Below, piece after piece: positions 19,821 through 45,800 of a stretch of DNA of 46,251 nucleotides. Within the stretch, counting starts at the first letter, position 1. Every line of letters starts with the position of its first letter. The stretch is from Verrucomicrobium sp. BvORR034. Its GTDB lineage: Bacteria > Verrucomicrobiota > Verrucomicrobiia > Verrucomicrobiales > Verrucomicrobiaceae. The notes beneath the pieces were generated by a model, which saw nothing but the letters and a program-made list of their open reading frames with translations, had not been told where the DNA came from and ran no database searches. A program made the position numbers and the translations under genes. The stretch covers positions 1-46,251 of the forward strand of contig NZ_BATQ01000131.1 in NCBI RefSeq assembly GCF_000739635.1. Direction: 5' to 3'.

Positions 19821-22800
19821 TCAAAGCCGTGAGATTCTCCGACGCCGAAAAATCGCCGCGCTCAATCCTGCCAACAACAACAACATGCGAGACGGCTCGG
19901 GCGTCACCACCAGCGTCCCGTGATTCAGGAACAAGGATGTGTCCCAAGTCAGGCCCGCACTCAGCGTGGGAAGATCCAGCATCAACCCTGCCACCGTCCC
20001 GTCGTCATAACGGTTCGGAACCGTGAACCCATTGTTGGCGAATCCCGTCCAGTCGATGAGGTTGAACACATCCCCGAAGACTCCCGTATATCCGTTGGTG
20101 GTCTGCACCGTGATCCCACCATTGGCATTCAGGGTTAAGGCCCCCTGCACGTCGATGAAATCGTGGTTGCCACCGCTGTCCTCCAAGAAGCTGGCATGAG
20201 CGGTGGGAATGGAATCCACCCATTCCCCAACCGTGGCAAAGGAACTGAACGTAGAGGCGATGTTGCGAGTGGTGCCTCCCACCTGCAGAATGGCCCGATC
20301 CACCCGGCTTGCGTCGCCAGCCAGATTCAGGCCTCCTAGAACCGTGAGAGTACCGGTGGCATCTCCGACGGTGCTCGCGGAGGCGGCACTGTTTGCCACA
20401 GTGGAGGCCCCAGGTCGCAGCACGCCCACCCGGGAAGTTCCCCCCACTCCCGTTCCGACAGTGAAAGTACCTCCTGTGGCATCGATCACGCCCGTGCCTG
20501 AAATGACAGCGTCCGTGGTGTAGCTCGAAGCAGTTCGGTTCTTCACGTCGAACGCGGCACCCGAATCCAGATTCACCCAGGCCACATCATCCATGGTGGC
20601 AGTGGAGCACAGGGAAACGCGACCCGCGACAATGCGCAGGTTACCTGAGTTCAGGTTGATTCCATTCAGAATGAGCTCTCCAAGACCGGCCTTGGTGAAC
20701 GAGCCGGTTCCAGCAAATTCCGCCGCAGCTTCAAACGTGGATTGCTGGTTCTCGCCTACCGAGAATGTACGCAGCCCTACATCGGTGGCAGCCCCGCTTC
20801 CATTGAGCATGATGGTGACATTCTGGTTGAGTTGATCCCGCCCTTGTAGGTTCTCAATGGTGCCCGCTTCCCAGTTGTAGGTGGCGGCACCAGTACCCTG
20901 GCTCATTTCCCCAAACCTGAACGTGGAGGCACCCCTTTGCGTGATCGTTCCTTTGGTGTTGGCCGGGGTGGTGGCCCCGGTGCCAGCTTGTGAGTAGTCG
21001 TGATCCGCCATGCGAATGCTGGTGGCTTCGATGATGCCTGTGCCGAAGATCAGACTGCCCTGCCCATAGCCGTTGGCCCCGTTGGCACTGCCGATGCGCC
21101 CAAGCACCAGGAGGTTCAGCTTCATGTCCACGGATGAAGCGCCTGTCAGATCCAAAGATGAGATGTTAGGTGTTCCCGTCGCCACCATATCGTTGTCGCC
21201 AATGAAAAGATTGGCACCGGTTTCCCCACCAGCCTGTCCTCTCACCGTCAGGCTTCCACCGCCACCGATCCATACCGTGGCCTTGGACCGCTCCCCCCCT
21301 ATCACCCAGGAATCCACGTTGATGGTGGTGGAGCCTGTTCCCAAATTCACCGCGGAGGCGGTATTTGTATTGACCACCGCAGTGGGAGCGAAGCCGATGA
21401 TGAAAGTGCCCGCGGTGATGGTGTTGGCTGTGTTGGACAGCACAAGGCCCCCAGTAGCCGTGTAGGAGTTGGTAGTGGGCACAATCCCTTGGTAGGCCCC
21501 AATCAGAATCCGGCTCACATTGATGTTCACCGAGCTGGCGGCCGAAAAATTCGCATCCCCTCGGGTGCTGCTCGTTGTGTCGACGCCTCCCAATGCAGAG
21601 GCGTCACGATAGCCGATGAGGAGGAAATCATCACTGCTGCCATCGCCGATGTTCACTGTGCCACCGTTCACGGTCAGCTGCCCCGTCATGCCTTGAGCCG
21701 TGCCGTACACTCCGCCCACAATCAGCGACTGCACATTCAGGCCGCTCTCAACGATGGAGGAGACCGTGCCACTGCTCGCCACCAGGTACAGAGCCTCCGT
21801 CGTGTTCGCAGCGATGGTCTGGAAATTCATTGCACCCTGGGCCACCACCGTCGCGCCCTTATAAGTGGGTGCCACAGAAAGTGAAAGGGTTCCAGCACCA
21901 ATCTTGGTCAGTCCTCCGTAGCCGTTGTTTCCAATCGCCCCACTCAAACTGACGTTGTTTGCCCCTACGTCGAACACATTGCCCACATTCAGAATGTTGC
22001 CTCCACCGGCTGGAGTGAGGAAGACGGAAGTCCCCAGCAGCTCCACCGAACGGCCGCTGCTGATGTCAGCATTGTTTCCCGAACCCCAGCGCAGCGTTCC
22101 TCCCGCCATGACAACGCCGCCACTGCCAAGGCTGCCCGCCGCTCCAAACTCCAGCACTCCCTGGTTGATGGTGGTGGGGCCCGAGTAAGTATTGTTTGCG
22201 TGGCTCAGCACCAGGGTGCCATTCCCGGCCTTGGTGATTGCGGTCGCCGCCGTGCCCTGGTTGGCAATCTGGGAAGCAATCGTGAGCGTCGCCCCTGCTG
22301 GGTTTGTCGCATGCGTGCTGGTGGTGAAGACGACCAGTTCATCCCCCACGGCGTCTGCAGTGCCCGCCAGAATTTGATCGTACCCGCTGATCGTGACGTC
22401 ATTGTCGGTGGCACCTGCCGTGAACAACAGTGCGCCGCTCGTCAGGGTCAGGACGTTGGTGCCTCCACCTGCCCCCGTCACACTGAAGCCTGCGGCGCTA
22501 GCATCCAATCTCAAAGCGTTGACTGTCGCCGTGCCCGCTGTCGCCACGGCGCTGTTGAGCGATACGTTGTCGCCCGCCACTGCTCCCGCATAGGAGACCA
22601 CGTATTCGGTGCCAACATCCAGTGCTCTTAGGCCATTCGTGTCCCGGGTGACAAAGGTGTTTCCAGCGCCAGTGGCCGAGCTGTCAGAGATGATGAACGG
22701 CAGAATCTTGCGTTTCGTACCACTGTTGCTCACATCCCCGATCAAGAAGCTGTCCAGCTTGGTGTAGCTGCCGAAGGTCACCCGTGTGGCGGTGGTGGTG

Positions 22801-25583
22801 GCACTGGCGGTGCCACCCAAGTTGGCACCTCGTACCAGGAGCGTGGCCCCGTTGTTGCGCACAAAGTTGCCCGTCGCCGTACTGCCAAACGCGAAGGTCG
22901 TCAGCACTGCGTTGTTCGTTGCGCTCGCCGTCAGAGAATGGCTCAAAGTAAAGGTGTTCGCCCCACCTTGGAGTTCAAGGATGTTCACCGTCTCCGTACG
23001 GGTGGCATTCTGGTTGCCCGTGATGCGGTAGCCGTCGCCCGACGTGCCTTCCAGAACGAGCGTCGCACTGTTATTTAGCTTGTTGACTTGAGCGGCTTGA
23101 TTCTGCTCCACCCGAAGCTGGCCACCCCGGAGGCGGATGGTATTGATGTTGATGAATCCTTCATTGCCTCCTGTGAGATCCAACAATCCTCCCAATACTC
23201 GCAGCTCTCCCGTCATGGTGTGGTTGCCATTTGTGGAAAGCGTCAAAGTACCGCTGCCCCGTTTGACCAGTGTGCCACTGCCGCTGATGCGGGCGTGAAA
23301 CGAGTTGCTCGAGGACTGGTTCACAATCAATGTGCCCCCGGTGCCCAACGACAGTTCACCTCGCCCCAACTCGGCATAGGTGTCATCCGTGGCCGCTCCG
23401 CCTTGGAGTGACCCCACGATTTCCGTGGAGCCATTAAGGTTCAACGTGGCCCCGAGGGTCGTCATCTGCCCGCTGGCCGCCATCACCAGTGCGGCGTAGT
23501 CGTTGAAGGCATTGCCCCCACTCACCCGCACGTTGCCCTGGATGTTGGTTATGCCGTTGTAGTAGTTGTTTCCGGCAATCTCAATCAGGCCCGTGCCAGC
23601 CAGCGTCAGATTGAGCGTGGCCGATTGCGTGGTGTTGCTGGCGCCGATATGCGAGGTCACTGAAAGAGTGCCTGTAGAATAGTTGGTGAGCACCAGCTCA
23701 GCGTTGGCGCCTTGAGTGGCATTGCGTACCAGCAGCTGGCCTCCCGAGATCGTCGTGGCATTGGCCCCCACATCGTCGCTCACGAGCACCCCGGCAGATC
23801 CCAACATGAGCGCTGCCGCCGCATTGTTGATGACCAGGTTGTTGGCGACTGGCGCGTCGAACACCAATGAGGACACCTCCGCTGTCCGCAATGTGCCCGT
23901 CAGCACCGAGTCCACCACCACATGATCCAGGGCCGCCCAGGCCGACTGATTGCTCTGTACCGTGCCCGCGTGGGCCACGATTTCATTGCTGCCGTTCTTC
24001 GTCGCCCAGCGATCTCCTCCCACCGTTGCCCACGCACCGAGAATGCCACGGGCGTCATTCCCCAAGCCCCCCACGGACACCACTTTGTTCAGACTTGCGC
24101 TACCCAGCTCAAAGTTCACCACGCCAGAGCCGCTGGACGAGCTGGGTGCGGCCCGGCTGATGCCCGCTGCAATTGTCAGCGTGACACCAAAGGCGCCATT
24201 CTCCACCAGCTTGACTCCGTTGGTTCCTGAACCGAGTGTCAATGAACCGACGGTCTCAGCCGAGGAGGCTGATCCATTCGCGAGCAGTTCCAAATTTCCT
24301 CCGCTCATGGATACGACCGCGGCATCCGCCAGCCGGCTGTTGCCGTTGTTCACGCTGTAGTCCAGCACCAGTTTGCCACGTGCGATCGAGGTGGTGCCGG
24401 TGTAGCTGTTCACCCCTTGCATCACCATGGTGCCGATCGACCGCTTGTTGAGGCTGCGTGCCGTGCCGTCACCGTTGGCAATCCCCACCTTGACCAGCAG
24501 ATCGATGTCCGACGCCGTTTCATTGACGATGAAGTCGCGAGTTGCGTTGAGGAAGAGGTTGGCGGCGAAGGCGCCGCCCGTGGATTGAATCACCGCTCCG
24601 TCGCTGGTGGGATGCACATAGAGCGTGGAGATGCGGTAGTTCACATCCGCCACCGTGTTGTCGAGTTCGAAGGTGCCAAATCCATTTGAGCCCGCCCCAC
24701 CTGAGGCGTTGCCAAAGATTAGCTGATGATTGGCGGTGTTTGAGGCTTTGACCACCACCTTGCCATCGAGGATGCGCAAGTTGCCGGTAAAGGTATTCGC
24801 TGCTGCGAAGGTCAGGGTTCCCACTCCATCCTTGTGATAGTTCGCCCCCGACACCACTCCATTCACCGTCGCCACCGCTCCTGATTGCACAGTGAAGGTC
24901 TGGGTGTTCGTCGTGCTCACCGCCCCCAAATTGACTGCGCCGCTGGTGTTGGAGATCGTGAGAGTCCGGTTGGTCGTGGCGGTGATCGGACCCGTCACAT
25001 TGATCCCCGTGTCACCCGCAAGGGTCAGGTTGGCACTCAATGTCACGTTTCCCGCCACCGTCAGCACCTTGTTGCTCCCCGCATTGTTCGTCCATGACTG
25101 AGTGCTCCCCACCGTCACTCCCGAATTGATCGCATGGCTCCCGCTGCCAGCTTGCACGGAGATCCCTGCCGTGCCCAACGTCACGACGAATTCATTCAAC
25201 GTACCGAGGGTGATGTTGCCTGACGCGTTGCTATTAAAGAGCATCCCCTGGAGGGCAAGCGACTGCCCGAGCGTGCTGATGGCATTCGTCACCGTCCCTT
25301 GGGCATTGAAGGTGGCGATGTCTGATGCCCCGGGGAGGGCCGACGCCGCCGTGGTCTGCGTCACATTCGTGTACCAGTTTCCCAAAGTCTGGAAGTTTCC
25401 GTCGCTCGTGCCACCCCAGTAGATGTTCGCCGCCGGAAGTTCCGAGCTCGTGGCCAACAGGAAGATTGCCGCACAGAACCCCTTCCACCAACCGGCGTAT
25501 CTGCCCGGGCCCTGGAGTGAATTTCCCTGCGAACCGATGGGTCGGCTGCACCGGGCATGGGCGTCAAAAGTGGTTGTTACCAT
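19821..25583 (-). CDS. Giant PEP-CTERM surface protein with autotransporter-associated beta-strand repeats
   Basis: A 1920-residue protein. A long leader with a hydrophobic core (GFCAAIFLLATSSELPAA) precedes IYWGGTSDGNFQTLGNW, a typical first repeat. The body is Gly/Thr/Ala/Asn-rich and contains many copies of the autotransporter-associated repeat (PF12951-like), for example GTMVMQGVNSYTGTTSI, KRGSGTLTLSTNGNHTMTG, KAGNGTLVLSHANNTYSG, KIGAGTLSLSVAPTYKG and KAGLGELILNGINLNSGN. The protein does not end in a barrel: it ends with a PEP-CTERM anchor, PEPSRMLLLLAGLSAAIF (from about residue 1895) followed by RRRR. It is therefore a probable substrate of the exosortase at 40.5 kb. Adhesin or matrix function is inferred. 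Confidence 0.9.
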   Translation of the reverse strand: MVTTTFDAHARCSRPIGSQGNSLQGPGRYAGWWKGFCAAIFLLATSSELPAANIYWGGTSDGNFQTLGNWYTNVTQTTAASALPGASDIATFNAQGTVTNAISTLGQSLALQGMLFNSNASGNITLGTLNEFVVTLGTAGISVQAGSGSHAINSGVTVGSTQSWTNNAGSNKVLTVAGNVTLSANLTLAGDTGINVTGPITATTNRTLTISNTSGAVNLGAVSTTNTQTFTVQSGAVATVNGVVSGANYHKDGVGTLTFAAANTFTGNLRILDGKVVVKASNTANHQLIFGNASGGAGSNGFGTFELDNTVADVNYRISTLYVHPTSDGAVIQSTGGAFAANLFLNATRDFIVNETASDIDLLVKVGIANGDGTARSLNKRSIGTMVMQGVNSYTGTTSIARGKLVLDYSVNNGNSRLADAAVVSMSGGNLELLANGSASSAETVGSLTLGSGTNGVKLVENGAFGVTLTIAAGISRAAPSSSSGSGVVNFELGSASLNKVVSVGGLGNDARGILGAWATVGGDRWATKNGSNEIVAHAGTVQSNQSAWAALDHVVVDSVLTGTLRTAEVSSLVFDAPVANNLVINNAAAALMLGSAGVLVSDDVGANATTISGGQLLVRNATQGANAELVLTNYSTGTLSVTSHIGASNTTQSATLNLTLAGTGLIEIAGNNYYNGITNIQGNVRVSGGNAFNDYAALVMAASGQMTTLGATLNLNGSTEIVGSLQGGAATDDTYAELGRGELSLGTGGTLIVNQSSSNSFHARISGSGTLVKRGSGTLTLSTNGNHTMTGELRVLGGLLDLTGGNEGFININTIRLRGGQLRVEQNQAAQVNKLNNSATLVLEGTSGDGYRITGNQNATRTETVNILELQGGANTFTLSHSLTASATNNAVLTTFAFGSTATGNFVRNNGATLLVRGANLGGTASATTTATRVTFGSYTKLDSFLIGDVSNSGTKRKILPFIISDSSATGAGNTFVTRDTNGLRALDVGTEYVVSYAGAVAGDNVSLNSAVATAGTATVNALRLDASAAGFSVTGAGGGTNVLTLTSGALLFTAGATDNDVTISGYDQILAGTADAVGDELVVFTTSTHATNPAGATLTIASQIANQGTAATAITKAGNGTLVLSHANNTYSGPTTINQGVLEFGAAGSLGSGGVVMAGGTLRWGSGNNADISSGRSVELLGTSVFLTPAGGGNILNVGNVFDVGANNVSLSGAIGNNGYGGLTKIGAGTLSLSVAPTYKGATVVAQGAMNFQTIAANTTEALYLVASSGTVSSIVESGLNVQSLIVGGVYGTAQGMTGQLTVNGGTVNIGDGSSDDFLLIGYRDASALGGVDTTSSTRGDANFSAASSVNINVSRILIGAYQGIVPTTNSYTATGGLVLSNTANTITAGTFIIGFAPTAVVNTNTASAVNLGTGSTTINVDSWVIGGERSKATVWIGGGGSLTVRGQAGGETGANLFIGDNDMVATGTPNISSLDLTGASSVDMKLNLLVLGRIGSANGANGYGQGSLIFGTGIIEATSIRMADHDYSQAGTGATTPANTKGTITQRGASTFRFGEMSQGTGAATYNWEAGTIENLQGRDQLNQNVTIMLNGSGAATDVGLRTFSVGENQQSTFEAAAEFAGTGSFTKAGLGELILNGINLNSGNLRIVAGRVSLCSTATMDDVAWVNLDSGAAFDVKNRTASSYTTDAVISGTGVIDATGGTFTVGTGVGGTSRVGVLRPGASTVANSAASASTVGDATGTLTVLGGLNLAGDASRVDRAILQVGGTTRNIASTFSSFATVGEWVDSIPTAHASFLEDSGGNHDFIDVQGALTLNANGGITVQTTNGYTGVFGDVFNLIDWTGFANNGFTVPNRYDDGTVAGLMLDLPTLSAGLTWDTSLFLNHGTLVVTPEPSRMLLLLAGLSAAIFRRRRISRL

Positions 25584-36549: not shown

Positions 36550-38301
36550 ATGACTCCTCCCTCCTTCTGGCATCGCACTGCCCTGCTACTCTCACTGGTC
36601 ACTGGGCTCATCAACCCCACGGGGTCCTTGCATGCGGAACCCGTGCTCAAAGAAGGCATCGAGTTCGCCAAGGTGGGGGAACAGCCCCTCCAACTCGATC
36701 TCTACCTGCCCGAAGGAAAAGCAAAGTCCCCTCTCATCGTGTACGTGCACGGCGGTGGCTGGCGATCTGGCTCCCGCTCGGACATGCCGCTGGGCAACCT
36801 TGTGGCGCAGGGATTCCCAGTCGCCAGTGTGGACTACCGCCTTTCCACCGTCGCCCCATTCCCCGCTCAGGCCCATGACATCAAGGCGGCGATTCGTTTC
36901 CTTCGTGCAAAAGGAAAAGAGCTGGGTCTCAGTGACACCTCCAAGATCGTGATCGCAGGAGGCTCCGCTGGCGGGCATCTCGCCGCCATTGTCGGGGTGA
37001 CCAACGGGAACAAAGCCCTTGAAGGCACCGTGGGCTCTGCCCAGTCTGCATCAAGCGATGTGCAGGGCATCATCAGCCACTTTGGGGCGTCGAACCTGCA
37101 GACCATTCTCTCCCAAAGCACCCCTCATGGATTGAAGGTCCGGGTGCCTGCTCTCGAGCTTCTGCTGGGCGGACAACCCGACCTCGCGCGGTTGGCGAGC
37201 CCGGTCGCCCAGCTCGACTCCCAGGATACTCCTCTCTTGCTGATTCATGGGGACGCTGATCCGCAGATGCCCTTTGCCCAGTCCGAAGAATTTCAACGCG
37301 CCTACCAGAAAGCAGGACTCAGCGTGGAGTTCGTCCCTGTGGCAGGCGGCAAGCACGGCGGACGGGAGTTCTATGATGAGGCTCGGACAAAGGTAATGGT
37401 GGAGTTTCTCAATCGAGTCGCCAGCAGCCCTGCCAGCCCGACACCCGCCAAGACATCGAAACCCGCCCCCTCTCATGCGGACGTCTCATATGGCCCTCAT
37501 CCACACCAGTTGCTGGATGTGTATCTTCCTTCCTCGAACCCATCTGGCGCCCCCTTTCCGGTTCTGCTGTGGTACGGCGGGCTCTGGAAACCGCTCAAGA
37601 ACCCACCCGATCTCAATCGTTTCCTCCCCCACCAAATCGCCGTGGTGGCAGTGGAGTCACGGACACTCACTGATGGTGTTGAAGACAAAACCAACCCGCC
37701 CGTTGCCTACCCCATGGAGGATGCCTGCCGTGCGGTGCAGTTTGTGCGGGCCCAAGCTTCAAAGTGGGGCCTAGATCCCACGCGCATCGCGGTGGGTGGC
37801 GGCTCTCAGGGTGCCCTGCCTGCCCTGTATGCAGGCTGCTCCGCTGACCGGGCTCGGCCAGATTCGGTCGATCCTGTCGAGCGACAGTCCAGCCGGGTCA
37901 CCTGCGTGGCGGCCTACCGCAGCCAGCCTTCCATCGATCCCGTACGCATGCAGGAGTGGGTCCCGGGAGTGATGTGGGGAGCCCCGGCCTTTGGCATCGG
38001 GTTTGAGGAGTCCCTCAAACGCCGCGAGGAACTTCTGCCAGTGATCCGCCAGTGGTCTCCAGAACACCTGCTACATTCGGGCGCCGCCCCCATGTACTTT
38101 GAAAACAACTGGGACCTCACCCAACCGGCAACCGTGACCGAGATGGACTACAAGGTCCATTCTCCCGCCTGGGCTCTGGGCTTCCAGAAGCTCGCGACAC
38201 AGGCAGGAGCGACCTGCCATGTGAAGTATCCCGGCCAGGAGACCAGCGGCTATGCCGATATCTGGGACTTCCTGGTGAAATCCCTCCAGCGGAGTCATTA
38301 G
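36550..38301 (+). CDS. Secreted tandem alpha/beta hydrolase (esterase/lipase-like)
   Basis: A 583-residue protein with a signal peptide (hydrophobic core ALLLSLVTGLI, cleavage near HAEP). The first hydrolase domain (about 40-295) has the oxyanion motif HGGGW (67-71), the nucleophile elbow GGSAG (Ser139), an acid region LLLIHGDADPQMP and a His in VAGGKHGGREF. This is the BD-FAE/carbohydrate-esterase-like pattern. After a Ser/Pro/Thr linker, a second domain (about 310-583) repeats the fold with LLWYGGLW and GGGSQG (Ser419), but its HGGGW equivalent is changed to WYGGLW. Possible activities are deacetylation of polysaccharides or ester cleavage. No operon partner is evident. Confidence 0.85.
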   Translation: MTPPSFWHRTALLLSLVTGLINPTGSLHAEPVLKEGIEFAKVGEQPLQLDLYLPEGKAKSPLIVYVHGGGWRSGSRSDMPLGNLVAQGFPVASVDYRLSTVAPFPAQAHDIKAAIRFLRAKGKELGLSDTSKIVIAGGSAGGHLAAIVGVTNGNKALEGTVGSAQSASSDVQGIISHFGASNLQTILSQSTPHGLKVRVPALELLLGGQPDLARLASPVAQLDSQDTPLLLIHGDADPQMPFAQSEEFQRAYQKAGLSVEFVPVAGGKHGGREFYDEARTKVMVEFLNRVASSPASPTPAKTSKPAPSHADVSYGPHPHQLLDVYLPSSNPSGAPFPVLLWYGGLWKPLKNPPDLNRFLPHQIAVVAVESRTLTDGVEDKTNPPVAYPMEDACRAVQFVRAQASKWGLDPTRIAVGGGSQGALPALYAGCSADRARPDSVDPVERQSSRVTCVAAYRSQPSIDPVRMQEWVPGVMWGAPAFGIGFEESLKRREELLPVIRQWSPEHLLHSGAAPMYFENNWDLTQPATVTEMDYKVHSPAWALGFQKLATQAGATCHVKYPGQETSGYADIWDFLVKSLQRSH

Positions 38302-38334
38302 GCTGGGCCCGTGACGGCATTTTTCGCCAGTGGG

Positions 38335-38389
38335 TTTCACAGGCAATTCACGCCGGTTTCACCAGCGGTTCACAAAGCCTTCATCTAGG
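38335..38389 (+). promoter_or_regulatory. Pho-box-like array: five TTCAC/T direct repeats at 11-bp period
   Basis: TTCAC occurs at 38336, 38347, 38358 and 38369, and TTCAT at 38380, each exactly 11 bases after the last. This is the spacing and core of PhoB/PhoP boxes: E. coli units are 7 bp with 4-bp gaps, and Streptomyces units are GTTCACC at 11 bp. A weak -10-like CAGGAT (38395-38400) follows about 10 bp after the last unit, where a PhoB-activated promoter would place it. The VIT/vWA gene starts at 38434. Confidence 0.65.
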
Positions 38390-38433
38390 GCGGGCAGGAT
38401 TCGGGAACGCAAACCCGGAACCTTCCCTCCCCT

Positions 38434-40461
38434 ATGAACAAGCGATTCATCCCGCTCGCAGCCGCCCTGCTGGCACTCTGTGCCACCCCCATGGCACTGG
38501 CCATCACCCAAGCTCACCCCTACGGCGACGGCCCGCCGGACAAGACGCTTGCACCAACCTTTCAAGTCAGCAGCACGAACTCCAGGCAGACAGACGTGCT
38601 GCCCCTGAGATCCACCCAGATCCAGGCCAAGATCTCTGGAGTGATCGCGGATGTCACGGTGGAGCAGGTTTACCAGAACACCGGCGACGCCTCCATTGAG
38701 GCCAAGTATGTCTTTCCAGCCTCCACCCGAGCAGCGGTACACGGGGTGGAGATGCGTCTGGGCCAACGCGTCATCAAGTCCGTCATTCAAGAGAAAGCCC
38801 AGGCCAAGGCCACCTACGAAAAGGCCAAAAGCCAGAACAAATCCGCCTCCCTGCTGGAGGAGCACCGGCCAAACGTGTTTGAGATGAGCGTGGCCAACAT
38901 CCTGCCTGGAGAGGTGGTGAAAGTCTCCCTCCACTACAGTGAGAAGCTGCTTCCCTCGAACCGCGTTTACGAGTTCGTCTTCCCTACGGTCGTAGGTCCC
39001 CGCTACCAAAGCGGTTCAGGAAATGACAGCGGCGAAGCGTGGGCGGAGAACCCCTACGTGGCCACGGGCACGGCCGGCGCGGCGACCTTTGCCATGAATC
39101 TGGAACTTCAGGCTGGCATGCCCCTGCAGTCCATCGCCTCCCCAAGCCATCAGGGACTGATGCAGTTCAGCGGCAAGAGCAGCGCCTCCTTCACGCTCTC
39201 CCCATCGGCGGACCACGCCAATCGCGACTTTGTCCTGCGCTACCAGCTCTCCGGCCGCGAGGTGGCCACCGGGCTTCTGTTGCATCAGGCTCCGGCCGGA
39301 GCCGGACCTGACGCGGAGAACTTCTTTCTCCTCAACGTGCAGCCTCCCGCCAAGATAGAAGCCGGGCAGATCCCTCCCCGGGACTATCTCTTCGTCCTGG
39401 ATGTAAGCGGTTCAATGAATGGCTTCCCAATAGAGACTTCCAAACGGCTGATGACCGACCTGCTCAAAGGTTTGAATCAAGGAGACACGTTTAACATCCT
39501 GCATTTCGCATCCGACAGTGCCGTGCTTTCGCCCAAGCCGCTGGCTGCGACTCCTGAGAACATTCAACTCGCCACGAAAGACCTCTCTGGGCATCGTGGC
39601 AATGGCGGCACTGAACTGCTGCCCGCCCTCAAGCGAGCCCTGGCCATGCCCCAAGAGGAAGGCGTGTCGCGAAGCATCGTCATCCTCACTGACGGGTATG
39701 TGACCATTGAAAAGGAAGCGTTCCGCCTCGTGAGGAAGGAACTGCAGAATGCCAACGTCTTCACCTTCGGGATTGGCACCGCCGTGAACCGCTGGCTCAT
39801 AGAAGGTCTTGCCCATGCCGGCCAGGGAGATCCCTTCGTCGTGCTCTCGGAAAAGGATGCGACAGCCGCTGCGGAACGGTTCAGGGAATACATCAGCCGG
39901 CCGGTGCTCACGGATGTACAAGTGGCCTACGAGGGCTTTGATGCCTATGATGCCGAACCTGCCAGTATCCCGGATGTGTTCGCGGACCGTCCCATCGAAC
40001 TGATTGGCAAATGGCGTGGCCAGCCACAGGGACGCATCATCGTTCGCGGAAAAACCGGTGGCTCGCCCTATGAGGCCAGCTTCAATGTCGCCCAGGAGTC
40101 TGCCAAAGGGCTGTCGAATCCTGCCCTGCGCCCCCTATGGGCCAAGGACCGGGTTCGGACTCTCAACTACGAGCTCCAGATCACGCCCGATGTGAAGACC
40201 ATCAAGACAGTCACCGACCTGGGGGTGGGCTACGCCTTGCTGACGCCTTACACCTCCTTCGTTGGCGTCGATGAGTCTCCTAAAGAAGTCCTCGCCCAGG
40301 CTCAGACCTCCAACCCGCCTACAGGCGCGGGCCAGCCTGTGGTGGTCGTGAGTTCATCCTCCAAGGGCGCCACGCCAGGAGCCGTACCAGAACCCGGGGT
40401 GACAGGTTTGATCCTGCTGGCCGCCGCCAGTCTGCTCATGAACCGCCAACGCCCCCGGTGA
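38434..40461 (+). CDS. VIT and von Willebrand A domain protein with PEP-CTERM anchor
   Basis: A 675-residue protein. A signal peptide (about 1-23, ending MALA) is followed by a VIT domain (about 52-180, VTVEQVYQNTGDASIEAKYVF). A vWA domain follows from about residue 317 with an intact MIDAS start DYLFVLDVSGSM (Asp323, Ser325, Ser327) and the later ILTDGYVTIE. The C-terminus carries a PEP-CTERM sorting signal: PEPG from residue 652, a hydrophobic helix (TGLILLAAASLLM) and an Arg-rich tail. The exosortase gene overlaps its stop by 4 bases (GTGA), so it is very likely the dedicated substrate. The leader has a pyrimidine tract (38421-38432) and a Pho-box-like array upstream. A role in surface adhesion or envelope stress is inferred. 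Confidence 0.92.
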   Translation: MNKRFIPLAAALLALCATPMALAITQAHPYGDGPPDKTLAPTFQVSSTNSRQTDVLPLRSTQIQAKISGVIADVTVEQVYQNTGDASIEAKYVFPASTRAAVHGVEMRLGQRVIKSVIQEKAQAKATYEKAKSQNKSASLLEEHRPNVFEMSVANILPGEVVKVSLHYSEKLLPSNRVYEFVFPTVVGPRYQSGSGNDSGEAWAENPYVATGTAGAATFAMNLELQAGMPLQSIASPSHQGLMQFSGKSSASFTLSPSADHANRDFVLRYQLSGREVATGLLLHQAPAGAGPDAENFFLLNVQPPAKIEAGQIPPRDYLFVLDVSGSMNGFPIETSKRLMTDLLKGLNQGDTFNILHFASDSAVLSPKPLAATPENIQLATKDLSGHRGNGGTELLPALKRALAMPQEEGVSRSIVILTDGYVTIEKEAFRLVRKELQNANVFTFGIGTAVNRWLIEGLAHAGQGDPFVVLSEKDATAAAERFREYISRPVLTDVQVAYEGFDAYDAEPASIPDVFADRPIELIGKWRGQPQGRIIVRGKTGGSPYEASFNVAQESAKGLSNPALRPLWAKDRVRTLNYELQITPDVKTIKTVTDLGVGYALLTPYTSFVGVDESPKEVLAQAQTSNPPTGAGQPVVVVSSSSKGATPGAVPEPGVTGLILLAAASLLMNRQRPR

Positions 40462-41813
40462 ATCCTGCGTCCCCCACGGATCTGGTCACCCGGGATGCCC
40501 TGCCGCTGCCAGTTCGACTCTGGCCCTTGGCGGGCTGGGGTCTCTTTCTCCTGGCGGCCTTCCCATCCTGTCGATGGTACTTCCATCGGATCTCGGACCA
40601 GTCTGATGAACCGCTTGGACTTTTGGCTCTTCTCGTCTTCACCGGACTGGTCTGGACACGACGCCAGGAAATCGAGTGGAGGCCCACGCTTTTGATCCGG
40701 GGCAGCGGCTTGCTGCTCGCCTGGACTTGGGCCGACAACTCCGCCTACCCCATGGTCATGACTGCGGGTGTGCTGGCGGTGCTCCTTTCATCCATGCAGC
40801 TCCGTGAGGGAAAGTCGGGCCTGGCTGCTCTTCTGCTCCTCTCACTGCCGCTCATGGCCTCGCTTGACTTTTATGCGGGCAGTCCCATGCGTCTGGCGGC
40901 CGCAGAGATGGCGCGCGTAACGCTTTCTACCATCGGCCTCACCGTCACTCGGGCGGGCACGCTTTTGATGGATGGCGACCGCATCGTGGGGGTAGACCCA
41001 CCCTGCTCTGGCGTGCGCATGCTTTGGACCACTTGGTTTGTCGGGGCCACCCTAGCGAGTCTCCGACGCCTTCACCTGCCAGGAACGCTGACCCTGCTCG
41101 GAATCGCCACCTTCCTTGTCACCGCAGGCAATGGTTTGCGAGCCACCGTATTGTACTTCCCGGAGTCTGGTCGCGCCCATTGGCCTCATTTGGCCCATGA
41201 AGGGGTGGGCCTTGCCTGTCAGGCGCTGGTGTTGGCAGGGGTGTATCTGGTCGCCGGGCAGGCAAGCGGCGCAAACCGGGTGCCCCCTACACATCGCAGC
41301 TTCACCTGGATGGCCGCAACGGCACCCTTCCTTGTCGCACTTGGCCTGCTGTGGCACTTCCTTCCCTCTGAGCGCTCCCAATCGAACACATTCGTCTGGC
41401 CTGCCACATGGGACGGAGTTCCCCTCCATTCCGTACCGCTATCGGAGCGCGAGTCCCGATTCGCCCAGTCCTTTCCGGGTCAGGTCGGCCGGTTTCATTG
41501 TGGCGAGGCCGAGGTGATACTCCGTCACGTCACCCAGGCCACCCGTCTCCTGCACAGCAGCGCGGACTGCCTGCGCGCCTCCGGCTATGAAATACGGTCG
41601 CAACTCGCCTGGCAGGACATCGATGGCCGGGTGTGGGGCTGCTACGAAGCCCGACACCGGGGGCAGTCCTACCGAGTGAGGGAACGCATCACCAACTCAT
41701 CGCAGTCGCAGTGCCACACCGACGTTTCCAGCTGGTACTGGTCCGCGTTCTGGAATCCTGAAACAGGGCCGTGGCTGGCCATGACCGTGATTGAAACCAT
41801 TCCGTCACGATGA
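40458..41813 (+). CDS. Exosortase/archaeosortase family transpeptidase with C-terminal soluble extension
   Basis: A 451-residue protein starting with GTG at 40458. About eight membrane helices occupy residues 20-310. The catalytic set is complete: Cys183 in DPPCSGVRM, Arg228 in GNGLRAT, and His244/His247 in WPHLAHEGVG. The enzyme should cleave PEP-CTERM tails of exported proteins at the inner membrane. Beyond residue ~310 lies a ~140-residue soluble extension with HSSADCLRASGY (His366, Cys371), which recalls the H-x-P-x-x-C-x-x-x-x-G region of EpsI/DUF3485 proteins often encoded beside or fused to exosortases. It is translationally coupled to the VIT/vWA gene. The exact exosortase subtype cannot be assigned here. 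Confidence 0.9.
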   Translation: MNPASPTDLVTRDALPLPVRLWPLAGWGLFLLAAFPSCRWYFHRISDQSDEPLGLLALLVFTGLVWTRRQEIEWRPTLLIRGSGLLLAWTWADNSAYPMVMTAGVLAVLLSSMQLREGKSGLAALLLLSLPLMASLDFYAGSPMRLAAAEMARVTLSTIGLTVTRAGTLLMDGDRIVGVDPPCSGVRMLWTTWFVGATLASLRRLHLPGTLTLLGIATFLVTAGNGLRATVLYFPESGRAHWPHLAHEGVGLACQALVLAGVYLVAGQASGANRVPPTHRSFTWMAATAPFLVALGLLWHFLPSERSQSNTFVWPATWDGVPLHSVPLSERESRFAQSFPGQVGRFHCGEAEVILRHVTQATRLLHSSADCLRASGYEIRSQLAWQDIDGRVWGCYEARHRGQSYRVRERITNSSQSQCHTDVSSWYWSAFWNPETGPWLAMTVIETIPSR

Positions 41814-41998
41814 TGCCGTGGCAGCCCCTCTTCCTGGCTTTTACACTGCGCCCAGACGCAATTGCTTTACCTGCGGCCAGACTGTGAGAAGTTGCGCGTT
41901 CCAGACATCTCGGTTTTCAGCCGGGTCACCGCTCCCTTTGCCTTGGGAGCCGCGTACCTCCCGTTGCGACCTTTGTGTCCTTTCCCTTTCTTTCTGCC

Positions 41999-42535
41999 AT
42001 GACCTCCAGCCGACTTTCCACCTGTGCCTTCCTGTTTCTGGGAGCGGGCTTGGTGGGACTGTCTCCAGCCGAGCCACGCGTGGCGCGTGACGGTGGGGAG
42101 GATCAGGCTGGCGTGGTGGCCATCAAGCTGCCACTTCGCTCCACGTCTGTCAGGCCCTCTACCGGTGAGCCTCACAGACAAAAGCGCACTCCGCTGGATC
42201 CCTCCAGCCCTGCGTCCCCCCTGAGGGTGACCCCGCCTGCGCTCGTCGCCATTCTGACCGGCAATCAGGAACGCCCCCGTGCCGCCGTCCAAGTGGCGCT
42301 GCCGTGGCAGAGTGCGGTTCCTGCCCTGTCCGAGTCTGACCAAGTCACCCACCGGCCGCTGCCTTTCGACCCTGCAGCGGCCCCTTTCGCCACCCAGATA
42401 GACCTTCAACGGCAGGCGAAAACGGAGCTGGCTTCGCGACGGGCCCAGTACCCAGACCATCAGCAATACCGGTTCACCGACAATTGGGAATTCATGAGGG
42501 GGTGCCTCCGGGCACCAGACGGGATCGAGGCCTGA
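41999..42535 (+). CDS. Small secreted protein downstream of the exosortase, hypothetical
   Basis: A protein of 178 residues from the ATG at 41999; the in-frame ATG at 41975 would put residues MSFPFLSA before the signal peptide. The hydrophobic core is LSTCAFLFLGAGLVGLS, with likely cleavage near SPAEP. The rest is Pro/Arg/Ala-rich and probably disordered, ending in an aromatic and charged segment (DHQQYRFTDNWEFMRG). A pyrimidine tract precedes the start (41979-41990). It lies 185 bases after the exosortase on the same strand and may be cotranscribed. A long opposing frame on the minus strand covers the same bases, but it is Arg/Gly-rich and shadow-like. No family is recognised. Confidence 0.5.
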   Translation: MTSSRLSTCAFLFLGAGLVGLSPAEPRVARDGGEDQAGVVAIKLPLRSTSVRPSTGEPHRQKRTPLDPSSPASPLRVTPPALVAILTGNQERPRAAVQVALPWQSAVPALSESDQVTHRPLPFDPAAAPFATQIDLQRQAKTELASRRAQYPDHQQYRFTDNWEFMRGCLRAPDGIEA

Positions 42536-42711
42536 GCCTCCTACGCACCCTGGGAGCCCTGCCCCTCCCTTGGGGAAGACAATGTACTCTTCCCTGACCT
42601 TCACCCTAGACTGGGTGACGGACGGCGCAGTTTTCCGGCAGATCCTGCCTTTGCGCAGCCTCTGCATTTTGCCCATCCCTTAATCGAGAAATTGATCTAG
42701 CGCACCACCCG

Positions 42712-42739
42712 GGCCCCCTCAGGATTGCCTGCGGGGGCC
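42712..42739. other. GC-rich hairpin upstream of secA
   Basis: GGCCCCC-T-CAGG (42712-42723) pairs with CCTG-C-GGGGGCC (42728-42739) across an ATTG loop, with one mismatch and no T-run. It lies in the 272-bp gap between the exosortase cluster and secA. It may be a U-less terminator or a leader structure of secA; nothing else was recognised in the gap. Confidence 0.4.
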
Positions 42740-42807
42740 TGCTCAACACTTACCTTGCGCAAAGTCAATCCTCAGCCATCCTACCGTCCCTTTTCCCTCC
42801 CCTTGCC

Positions 42808-45800
42808 ATGTTTGATTGGATCGTTCGAAAAATTATAGGCTCAAAGAACCAGCGCGCCGTGAAGCGGCTCTGGCCTCTGGTGCATCAGATCAACCAGATT
42901 GAAGCCAAACTTCAGAATGAACCTGAAGACGTGCTCCGCGAAAAAACTGCGGGCTGGCAGGAACGTTTCCGTGCCTTCCATGAACCCCAGTTCCTTGCTG
43001 GCGTCTGGCTGCGCGTGGCAGGTGAGGAGGAGGTGGATCACTGCCTCCGCATGGTTGCGGACCGCTTCAACCGTTTGAAGCCGCACTTCTCCAGCCTGGA
43101 CGTGAACCTGGTGAACGAAGATGCCTGGGCCAAGGAGCCGCTGGAAGCCCGCAAAGATCGCATCACCAGAGCCCGCGAAGCCTACACCGCAATCGCCCCC
43201 AGATTTGGCCAGATCGAAGCCAGCATCCTCGAGGAGATCCTTCCCGAAGTGTACGCCGTGGTGAAGAATGCCGCCCGCCGTCTGTGCGGTCGCGAAGTGC
43301 TCGTGTGTGACCAGCCCCTGCGGTGGGAAATGGTGCACTTCGACGTTCAGCTGATCGGCGGCGTCGCCCTGCATCGCGGTATGATCGCGGAAATGGCCAC
43401 GGGTGAAGGGAAAACGCTCGTGGGCACCCTGCCCGTCTTCCTCAACGCCCTGACCGGCCGCGGTGTGCACGTCATCACCGTAAACGACTACCTCGCCCGT
43501 CGTGACTCCGAGTGGATGGGCACCCTCTACAAGTTCCTGGGACTGACGGTGGGTTGCATTCAGAACGACCAGGCTCCCGATGTGCGTCGCGACCAGTATG
43601 TGGCCGACATCACCTACGGGACCAACAGTGAATTCGGCTTCGACTACCTGCGCGACAACGGCATGGCCCGGAGCAAGGACCATCAGGTGCAGCGCGGTCA
43701 CTACTTCGCCATCATTGACGAAGTGGACTCCGTCCTCATCGATGAAGCTCGTACGCCGCTGATCATCAGTGGCCCGGTGGCCACCAGCACGCACCAGTTC
43801 GATCGCTACAAGCCGCTCGTGGAGCAGCTCGTACGCCGCCAGAACACGCTGTGCAACCGCCTCATCCAGGAGGCCAACGAGCACTTCGAGAAGAAGGAAA
43901 ACGAGCAGGCCGGCCGCAAGCTCTTCCAGGTCCGCCTGGGTCAGCCCAAGAACCGCGGGTTGCTTCGCGCCCAGGAAGACGCAGACAAGCGTCGTGCCAT
44001 GGAGAAGGCCGAACTGAGCTTCTACCAGGACACACAGAAGACCGCCCTCTTCGAACTCAAGGAAGAACTTTACTACACCATCGATGAGAAGACGCATGAT
44101 GCGGATCTCAGCGAAATGGGCCGCACCTTCCTGAACCCAGACGAACCTGATGCGTTCGTGCTGCCCGACATCGCCTCTGCCTATGCAGACATCGATGCCG
44201 ACGCCGCGCTGAATGATGCCCAGCGTCTGGCCAGGAAGGAAGAAATGCAGGCCAAGTTGGACACCCAGGGCCAGCGCATTCACAACATCAACCAGCTCCT
44301 GCGCGCCTACTGCCTCTACGAGAAGGACAAGGAGTATGTCGTCGAGGAAAACAAGGTCATCATCGTGGATGAGCAGACGGGCCGCAAGATGCCCGGCCGC
44401 CGCTGGAGCGATGGTTTGCACCAGGCCGTGGAAGCCAAGGAAAGCGTCCACATCGACCACGAGACCCAGACGCTGGCGACCATCACCATTCAGAACTACT
44501 TCCGCCTCTACCAAAAGCTGGGCGGCATGACCGGTACCGCTGAAACGGATGCCGCTGAGTTCCACGACATCTATCGTCTGGACGTGCTCAGCATCCCGAC
44601 CAACCGCGTCATCAAGCGGAAGGATCACAACGACAGCATCTTCAAGACGCGTCGTGAGAAGTACCAGTCGGTGCTCAAACTCATCGTCGAGACCCACGCC
44701 ACAGGGCAGCCTCTGCTGATCGGTACGGCGAGCGTGGAGTCTTCCGAGACCCTCTCCCGTCTGCTCAAGCTGCAAAAGATCCCCCACTCCGTGCTCAACG
44801 CCAAGTATCACCGCCAGGAAGCGGAGATCGTGGCCCGCGCCGGTCAGAAGGGTTCCGTCACCGTGTCCACCAACATGGCCGGTCGTGGTACGGACATCAA
44901 ACTGGGCGAAGGCGTGGCCGAGCTCGGTGGACTCTTCGTGCTTGGCACAGAGCGCCATGAAAGCCGTCGCGTGGACCGCCAGCTTCGCGGTCGTTGCGCC
45001 CGTCAGGGTGACCCAGGGAACAGCAAGTTCTTCATCAGCTTCGAAGACGATCTCATGCGCAACTTCGGTGCGGCCGAGCGCATGACGAAGATCATGGAAC
45101 GCTTCGGCATGGAGGAAGGCCAGGAGCTGGAACACCCCTGGCTGAACCGCTCCGTCGAAACCGCCCAGAAGCGTGTGGAACAGCGCAACTACCTGTCCCG
45201 CAAACACGTGCTGGAATATGACGATGTCATGAACCAGCAGCGCGAGGTGGTGTACACCTACCGCAACGAAGTTCTGGAGAGCCCGGATCCCCGCCTGCTC
45301 CTGGATGAAGTGCTGGACAAGGTCATCCCCACCCGCCTTGAGGAGTTCATCCCCAAGGACGCCAGCAGCGACACCCAGCCGAACTATCAGGCCCTGCTCA
45401 ACTGGCTCAACACCTCCTTCCCGCTGGGCCTTACTGAAAAGGAATCCGCGCTGGAGACGAAGAGCTTCGACGAAATCGTCCAGTTTGTCATCGAACGCGT
45501 CCGCCGCGCCTACGACCTCAAGACCACCGGCGTGTTGCCTCAGCTCTTGCAAGAGAGCGAGCGCATCATCTTGTTGGAAGCGATCGATGAGCAGTGGCAG
45601 AACCACTTGTACGCCATTGACGGCCTTCGTGAAGGCGTCCGCCTGCGCTCCTACGGCCAGAAGGACCCCCTCGTGGAATACAAGTCCGAGGCGTACATCA
45701 TGTTCGAGGAGCTGATGACCAACATCTACAACAAGGTCGTCTCCAACCTCTTCAGCAGCCACCAGCGTCTCCAGGCGTTCATGGAGCATCTGCGCAACAG

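Follow-up and report, generated by a model that had tools for sequence, protein, structure and literature searches.

A tandem array of predicted CreB boxes upstream of a VIT/vWA PEP-CTERM gene and its exosortase gene in Verrucomicrobium

Introduction

The direct repeat TTCACN6TTCAC is described, in the relevant passages of two reports, as the cre/blr tag of the response regulators CreB and BlrA (PMC3660660, PMC4689548), and one passage elsewhere describes CreB binding as possible without a typical tag as well (PMC7873081). According to the portions of the literature that deal with inputs, CreBC-type systems of E. coli respond to the carbon source, and those of Pseudomonas and Aeromonas to PBP4 losing its function (PMC4689548, PMC2654508, PMC3962086). 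The promoter of creD in E. coli K-12 carries a TTCACN6TTCAC tag 77 nt upstream of the start codon. Beyond a few proteobacteria, the sensing and role of CreBC are unsettled, and few inputs are known for exosortase systems. Here we describe an array of such repeats in Verrucomicrobium sp. BvORR034 that in all likelihood consists of CreB boxes, from which phosphorylated CreB would activate a VIT/vWA PEP-CTERM gene together with its own exosortase gene. In open-access full text we found no literature joining an exosortase with CreB or CreD, nor any earlier description of an exosortase as the target of a CreB array.

Results

The array and its downstream genes

The stretch of DNA analysed, hereafter the window, comprises 46,251 nt of contig NZ_BATQ01000131.1 (GCF_000739635.1). 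On its forward strand, four TTCAC units (starting at 38336, 38347, 38358 and 38369) and one TTCAT unit (starting at 38380) follow one another in exact 11-bp steps, forming a five-unit array of the cre-tag type at 38336..38384, the units of which are predicted CreB sites. The repeat is as the original prediction had it, and both the window scan and shuffling bear it out: with up to three mismatches allowed, the five-unit pattern has a single match in the window, and all four TTCAYN6TTCAY pairs of the window lie inside the array (0.26 expected). The array might in principle be a chance repeat, or a piece of a coding or structural repeat, and the sole point in favour of this is one true tandem-repeat family found in another genome (G050). 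Against it, none of 100 dinucleotide shuffles gave the five-unit pattern, and in 10/10 orthologues of the VIT gene the TTCAY cores are conserved while the spacers vary; since the array is conserved, we regard this explanation as refuted and give it practically no probability.

The array lies upstream of a gene for a 675-aa protein with VIT and vWA domains (38434..40461, forward strand; PF08487, PF13768), a putative CreB target and exosortase substrate. The position upstream of this gene stands as first proposed, but the spacing does not, as 49 nt separate the last TTCAT from the ATG at 38434, the earlier figure of 45 having been counted from 38389. The protein has a signal-like N-terminus and a C-terminal PEP-CTERM tail (VPEPG; TIGR02595, 20.7 bits, cut-off 16), and it scores 395.6 bits against TIGR03788, below the curated cut-off of 551.65. 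Its gene overlaps by 4 nt, as claimed, the gene of a 451-aa exosortase with a fused C-terminal domain (40458..41813, forward strand; PF09721, 84.2 bits, cut-off 25.7), and the two genes presumably share a transcript. The nearest named model for this exosortase is XrtQ (NF012182), with 149.6 bits, below the cut-off of 270. In the window, a single protein of 451 aa comprises exosortase and C-terminal domain, which are encoded by two genes in the MAG clusters L250 (6920-8214), L254 (6888-8221) and L257 (6997-8324). Elsewhere in the window, a 1920-aa gene on the reverse strand (19821-25583) has a PEP-CTERM tail at its end (C70:19836-19904).

Other arrays in the host genome

The host genome (8.58 Mb, 200 contigs) was scanned for TTCAYN6TTCAYN6TTCAY with at most one mismatch, which gave 29 overlapping hits at 16 places and none for the reversed pattern. 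One of these arrays precedes a response regulator gene and a histidine kinase gene, which are creB and creC; another stands before a gene for an undescribed 591-aa protein, behind which comes a creD-like gene; a PBP1A-type gene has a third array, with one mismatch, before it; and further ones precede small proteins without a Pfam match, several of which have hydrophobic stretches as judged by eye. For a number of the 16 places, no target is evident. The predicted CreB regulon of this lineage would thus include the creD-like operon and creBC, with the PBP1A-type gene and small membrane proteins as weaker members, their arrays having mismatches and their coding status being called by length.

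Three exosortases are encoded in the genome, along with 72 PEP-CTERM matches above the cut-off. None of the 29 array hits falls on the contigs of the other two exosortases (C186 and C63), and a hand comparison of the lists for this genome placed no other PEP-CTERM match closer than about 3 kb to any array. The array therefore appears to belong to one dedicated pair and not to sorting in general, and the proposal that surface protein sorting as such is induced was too broad, as only the VIT/exosortase pair has an array.

The regulator of the array

The window array contains the TTCACN6TTCAC direct repeat that defines the cre/blr tag. The host genome encodes a CreB (311 bits, curated cut-off 273; at most 188 bits against PhoB models, below their cut-offs) and a CreC (536 bits, curated cut-off 356), and an array is situated 87 nt upstream of its creB. 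The DNA-binding half of this CreB is 49% identical to that of E. coli CreB; for 11 further regulators of the genome that match the PhoB model the corresponding figure is 26-38%. The TTCAC units are very probably binding sites of CreB, an envelope-stress and metabolism regulator, and not PhoB sites. The regulators of the dedicated sortase system, PdsR/PdsS, were considered and rejected, their models scoring far lower than those for CreB and CreC.

It is improbable that a different OmpR-family regulator controls the VIT operon through the same box in place of CreB. Such a regulator could be sought among the at least 11 further PhoB-model regulators of the genome (E <= 1e-40), and array hits also occur in 10 of the 27 genomes in which CreC was not detected; yet the genome's own arrays precede both creB and the creD-like operon, and where regulator genes adjoin the VIT gene in clusters (L250, L254, L257 and L295, described below) they are creB and creC.

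The original prediction held that PhoB binds the array and that phosphate limitation induces the operon. It described the site class correctly, namely a direct-repeat array for a response regulator of the OmpR/PhoB type accompanied by a -10-like element. PhoB-type sites are likewise 11-bp direct repeats, and PhoB and CreB belong to the same regulator family, but the core of the E. coli Pho box is of the TGTCA type, whereas that of the array is TTCAC/T. The assignment to a phosphate regulator, for which the repeats were expected at the genome's own pst and pho promoters, fails at the 7 PstS-type and PhoU-type loci that made up the check: no TTCAY pair occurs within 1.5 kb of the four PF12849 (PstS-type) matches, three of them over the cut-off, or of the three PhoU-domain matches, all over the cut-off and two of them on one contig. 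On this ground the Pho box was rejected. In its favour, 2.8 kb downstream of a phoU match, and on its strand, there is a site with a single mismatch (C129:44205); phoM is, in the passage concerned, an earlier name of the E. coli cre locus (PMC3962086). As a phoU site, C129:44205 was discarded, the downstream neighbour on its strand being a gene for a PQQ-repeat protein and not phoU. The genome's best PhoB-model regulator is a different gene, on C71, and with 216 bits it too is below the PhoB cut-off; this and the arrays before creD-like operons in 25 of 27 genomes (see below) also argue against a Pho box, which we consider highly improbable.

Promoter layout

We aligned 62 arrays (52 non-redundant) from the genomes analysed, anchored on their last unit. 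An A at +6 in 39/52 and a T at +10 in 36/52 together form a -10-like nAnnnT (binomial p 6e-15 and 2e-11, without correction for ancestry). Compared with these 52 arrays, the -10-like hexamer that had been proposed downstream of the window array is best placed at CAGGAT (38395..38400, forward strand), 5-10 nt past the last 11-mer unit. No consensus sigma-70 promoter was found in 38200-42900, which fits an activator-dependent promoter without proving it. With CAGGAT as the -10, the last two units fall around the -35 region, a layout known from activators of this regulator family; since they overlap this region, CreB may well recruit RNA polymerase to the weak -10. Two observations could favour the alternative that CreB represses the operon, or needs another activator, rather than activating it alone: in the relevant passages, Stenotrophomonas creD goes up once creBC is removed (PMC4689548), and repression is described for one cre gene of E. 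coli, malE (PMC3962086). However, the array precedes a poor -10 with which it is in constant phase, and the lack of a consensus promoter likewise matches the layout of an activator at -35, so that we judge repression, or dependence on another activator, unlikely.

Among the strongest arrays of the genome is an exact four-unit one at C55:35863-35900 (L005 4864-4901, G000) that no gene faces; its two neighbours, a deaminase gene and a gene of 439 aa, are on the opposite strand, and its 38 nt are identical in G002. The nAnnnT is absent from its usual place at this array.

Arrays, CreC and creD-like operons across genomes

In a set of 57 genomes, own included and with species related to one another, 30 were CreC-positive (E <= 1e-60), 29 of these over the curated cut-off. 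Exact three-unit arrays were found in 30/30 CreC-positive versus 10/27 CreC-negative genomes (Fisher p 6e-8), with a mean of 5.1 versus 0.5 exact hits per genome. The array hits total 167, nine of them a single tandem repeat in G050, versus 3 with the reversed pattern. The 10 array-bearing CreC-negative genomes account for 14 array hits, and because at most 22 CreC candidates were scored per genome, some absences of CreC may be false. Four genomes of genus g12 (G043, G049, G052 and G055; L109-L112), in which CreC was not detected, share a near-identical three-unit site that stands directly before an ATG, unlike the usual promoter layout.

For all CreC and PF06123 (CreD) matches of the 57 genomes, about 5 kb upstream was read. 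PF06123 matches occur in 29 genomes, two of which (G002 and G022) are cut by a contig end. In 25 of the 27 assessable genomes an array precedes the creD-like operon on the operon strand (G018 is counted with one mismatch only); in G030 and G056 there is none in the ~5 kb upstream. Shuffled loci gave an array on the scanned strand in 0/159 cases. An array was present within ~5 kb upstream of 17/30 creC genes and lacking for 13/30, so autoregulation of creBC is not general.

Except in G056, the PF06123 match covers only the C-terminal third of the creD-like proteins; these are distant relatives, the one of the window genome scoring 26.7 bits (cut-off 23). G056 (L139/L330) has a canonical CreD (495.6 bits) with no array upstream, and no CreC was found in it. 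An undescribed protein of ~590 aa without a Pfam match (e.g. L038 2687-4462) adjoins the creD-like gene in most loci and is a constant companion of the group's cre regulon. At several of the arrays before its gene (e.g. L184, L185, L187 and L194), only a short distance separates the -10-like element from an ATG, and mRNA leaders may therefore be very short or absent.

The VIT promoter in relatives

Three or more exact units stand upstream of all 10 VIT orthologues, that of the window included; the original prediction had made the array's presence in close orthologues a test, and there it holds. The genomes that carry them are all CreC-positive (Fisher p 9e-4). Nine orthologues were aligned (46-92% protein identity), and PEP is kept in 9/9. 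Among more distant VIT/vWA homologues, 0/20 have even one pair upstream. Three orthologues, from genus g3, lack an exosortase behind the VIT gene while array and PEP tail remain; in G003 (L051), only residues 49-71 and 415-450 of the exosortase match, a remnant, next to an intact VIT gene with intact PEP tail and array. As array and PEP tail outlast the exosortase in these cases, the array appears to go with the VIT gene first.

A sample of 387 genomes of the phylum gave 14 matching loci (E <= 1e-120), 12 of them new. Allowing one mismatch, an array is present in 9/10 of the new loci with an exosortase and 0/2 without; at L296 it has one mismatch, and at L295 it stands before creB. L297 has an exosortase and no array within one mismatch, only units that look degenerate by eye. 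In named genomes we took the best 80 of at least 546 confirmed loci and dropped two with short upstream sequence; of the 78 used, 7/7 with an exosortase and 4/71 without have an array (at most one mismatch), as do 0/1560 shuffles. Two of these loci, L199 and L205, repeat G005 and G015.

In three MAGs, from Methylomonas (L250), Bdellovibrionales (L254) and Akkermansiaceae (L257), creB, creC, the VIT/vWA gene and the exosortase gene form one cluster with an array, and CreB and CreC score over their cut-offs. A fourth such cluster with an array, L295 (G261), comes from the same order as the window. At L291, creC lies close upstream and creB was not detected directly upstream; at L241 and L301, creC ends 4-5 kb upstream. 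In the window's family, creBC is situated elsewhere in the genome, unlinked to the VIT gene. These clusters raise the tentative possibility, to which we give less than even weight, that CreB-CreC, the VIT/vWA PEP-CTERM protein and a dedicated exosortase make up one self-contained module in several phyla, in which the VIT/vWA protein may feed back on CreC, and which in the window's family would be split yet still wired by the CreB array. In such a module, a two-component system for envelope stress would have as its own output a surface protein that is cleaved at the membrane.

Discussion

Observed here are the array and its conservation, the CreB and CreC genes, their co-occurrence with arrays, the arrays at creD-like operons, the creBC-VIT-exosortase clusters and the constant spacing to the -10; CreB binding, phosphorylation, activation as opposed to repression, the signal and exosortase cleavage are inferred. 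The sensor kinase CreC would phosphorylate CreB, dimers of which would occupy the 11-bp direct repeats in tandem and bring RNA polymerase to the weak -10 CAGGAT. The VIT/vWA PEP-CTERM protein would thereby be switched on, and the exosortase too, via translational overlap; the exosortase could then cut the PEP-CTERM tail, whereupon the VIT/vWA protein would be released or anchored in the envelope. By analogy with proteobacterial CreBC, the signal probably concerns the envelope or peptidoglycan, or else metabolism. The shared array and the creBC-VIT-exosortase clusters provide a testable link, in which a CreBC signal would switch on the processing of a surface protein.

Several described systems resemble parts of this arrangement. 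In the PrsK/PrsR system, as presented in the sections concerned (PMC9850573), a two-component system is likewise tied to PEP-CTERM genes together with RpoN, but the regulator is of the Fis type and acts with sigma-54, whereas here an OmpR-type regulator would act at a sigma-70-like -10. The dedicated sortase system of proteobacteria (NCBIfam TIGR03785/03787/03788) also couples a VIT/vWA target with a two-component system named for it, and the VIT protein of the window is a distant TIGR03788 relative; in the present case, however, an exosortase takes the place of the sortase, and the regulators score far under the TIGR03785/03787 cut-offs and over those for CreB and CreC. Exosortase Q (NF012182) is the best named model for the exosortases of the window, L241, L250 and L257, all of which, at 147 to 195 bits, stay below its cut-off of 270. 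The closest counterpart is the cre/blr regulon itself (CreBC in E. coli and Pseudomonas, BlrAB in Aeromonas), with which this genome shares the TTCACN6TTCAC repeat, a CreB and CreC equivalog pair and tags before creD-like genes. It differs in that the arrays mostly have 3-5 units instead of a single pair, that the creD-like gene is distant and lies behind the ~590-aa gene, and that the predicted targets include a VIT/vWA-exosortase pair, which is absent from the cre/blr papers that we found.
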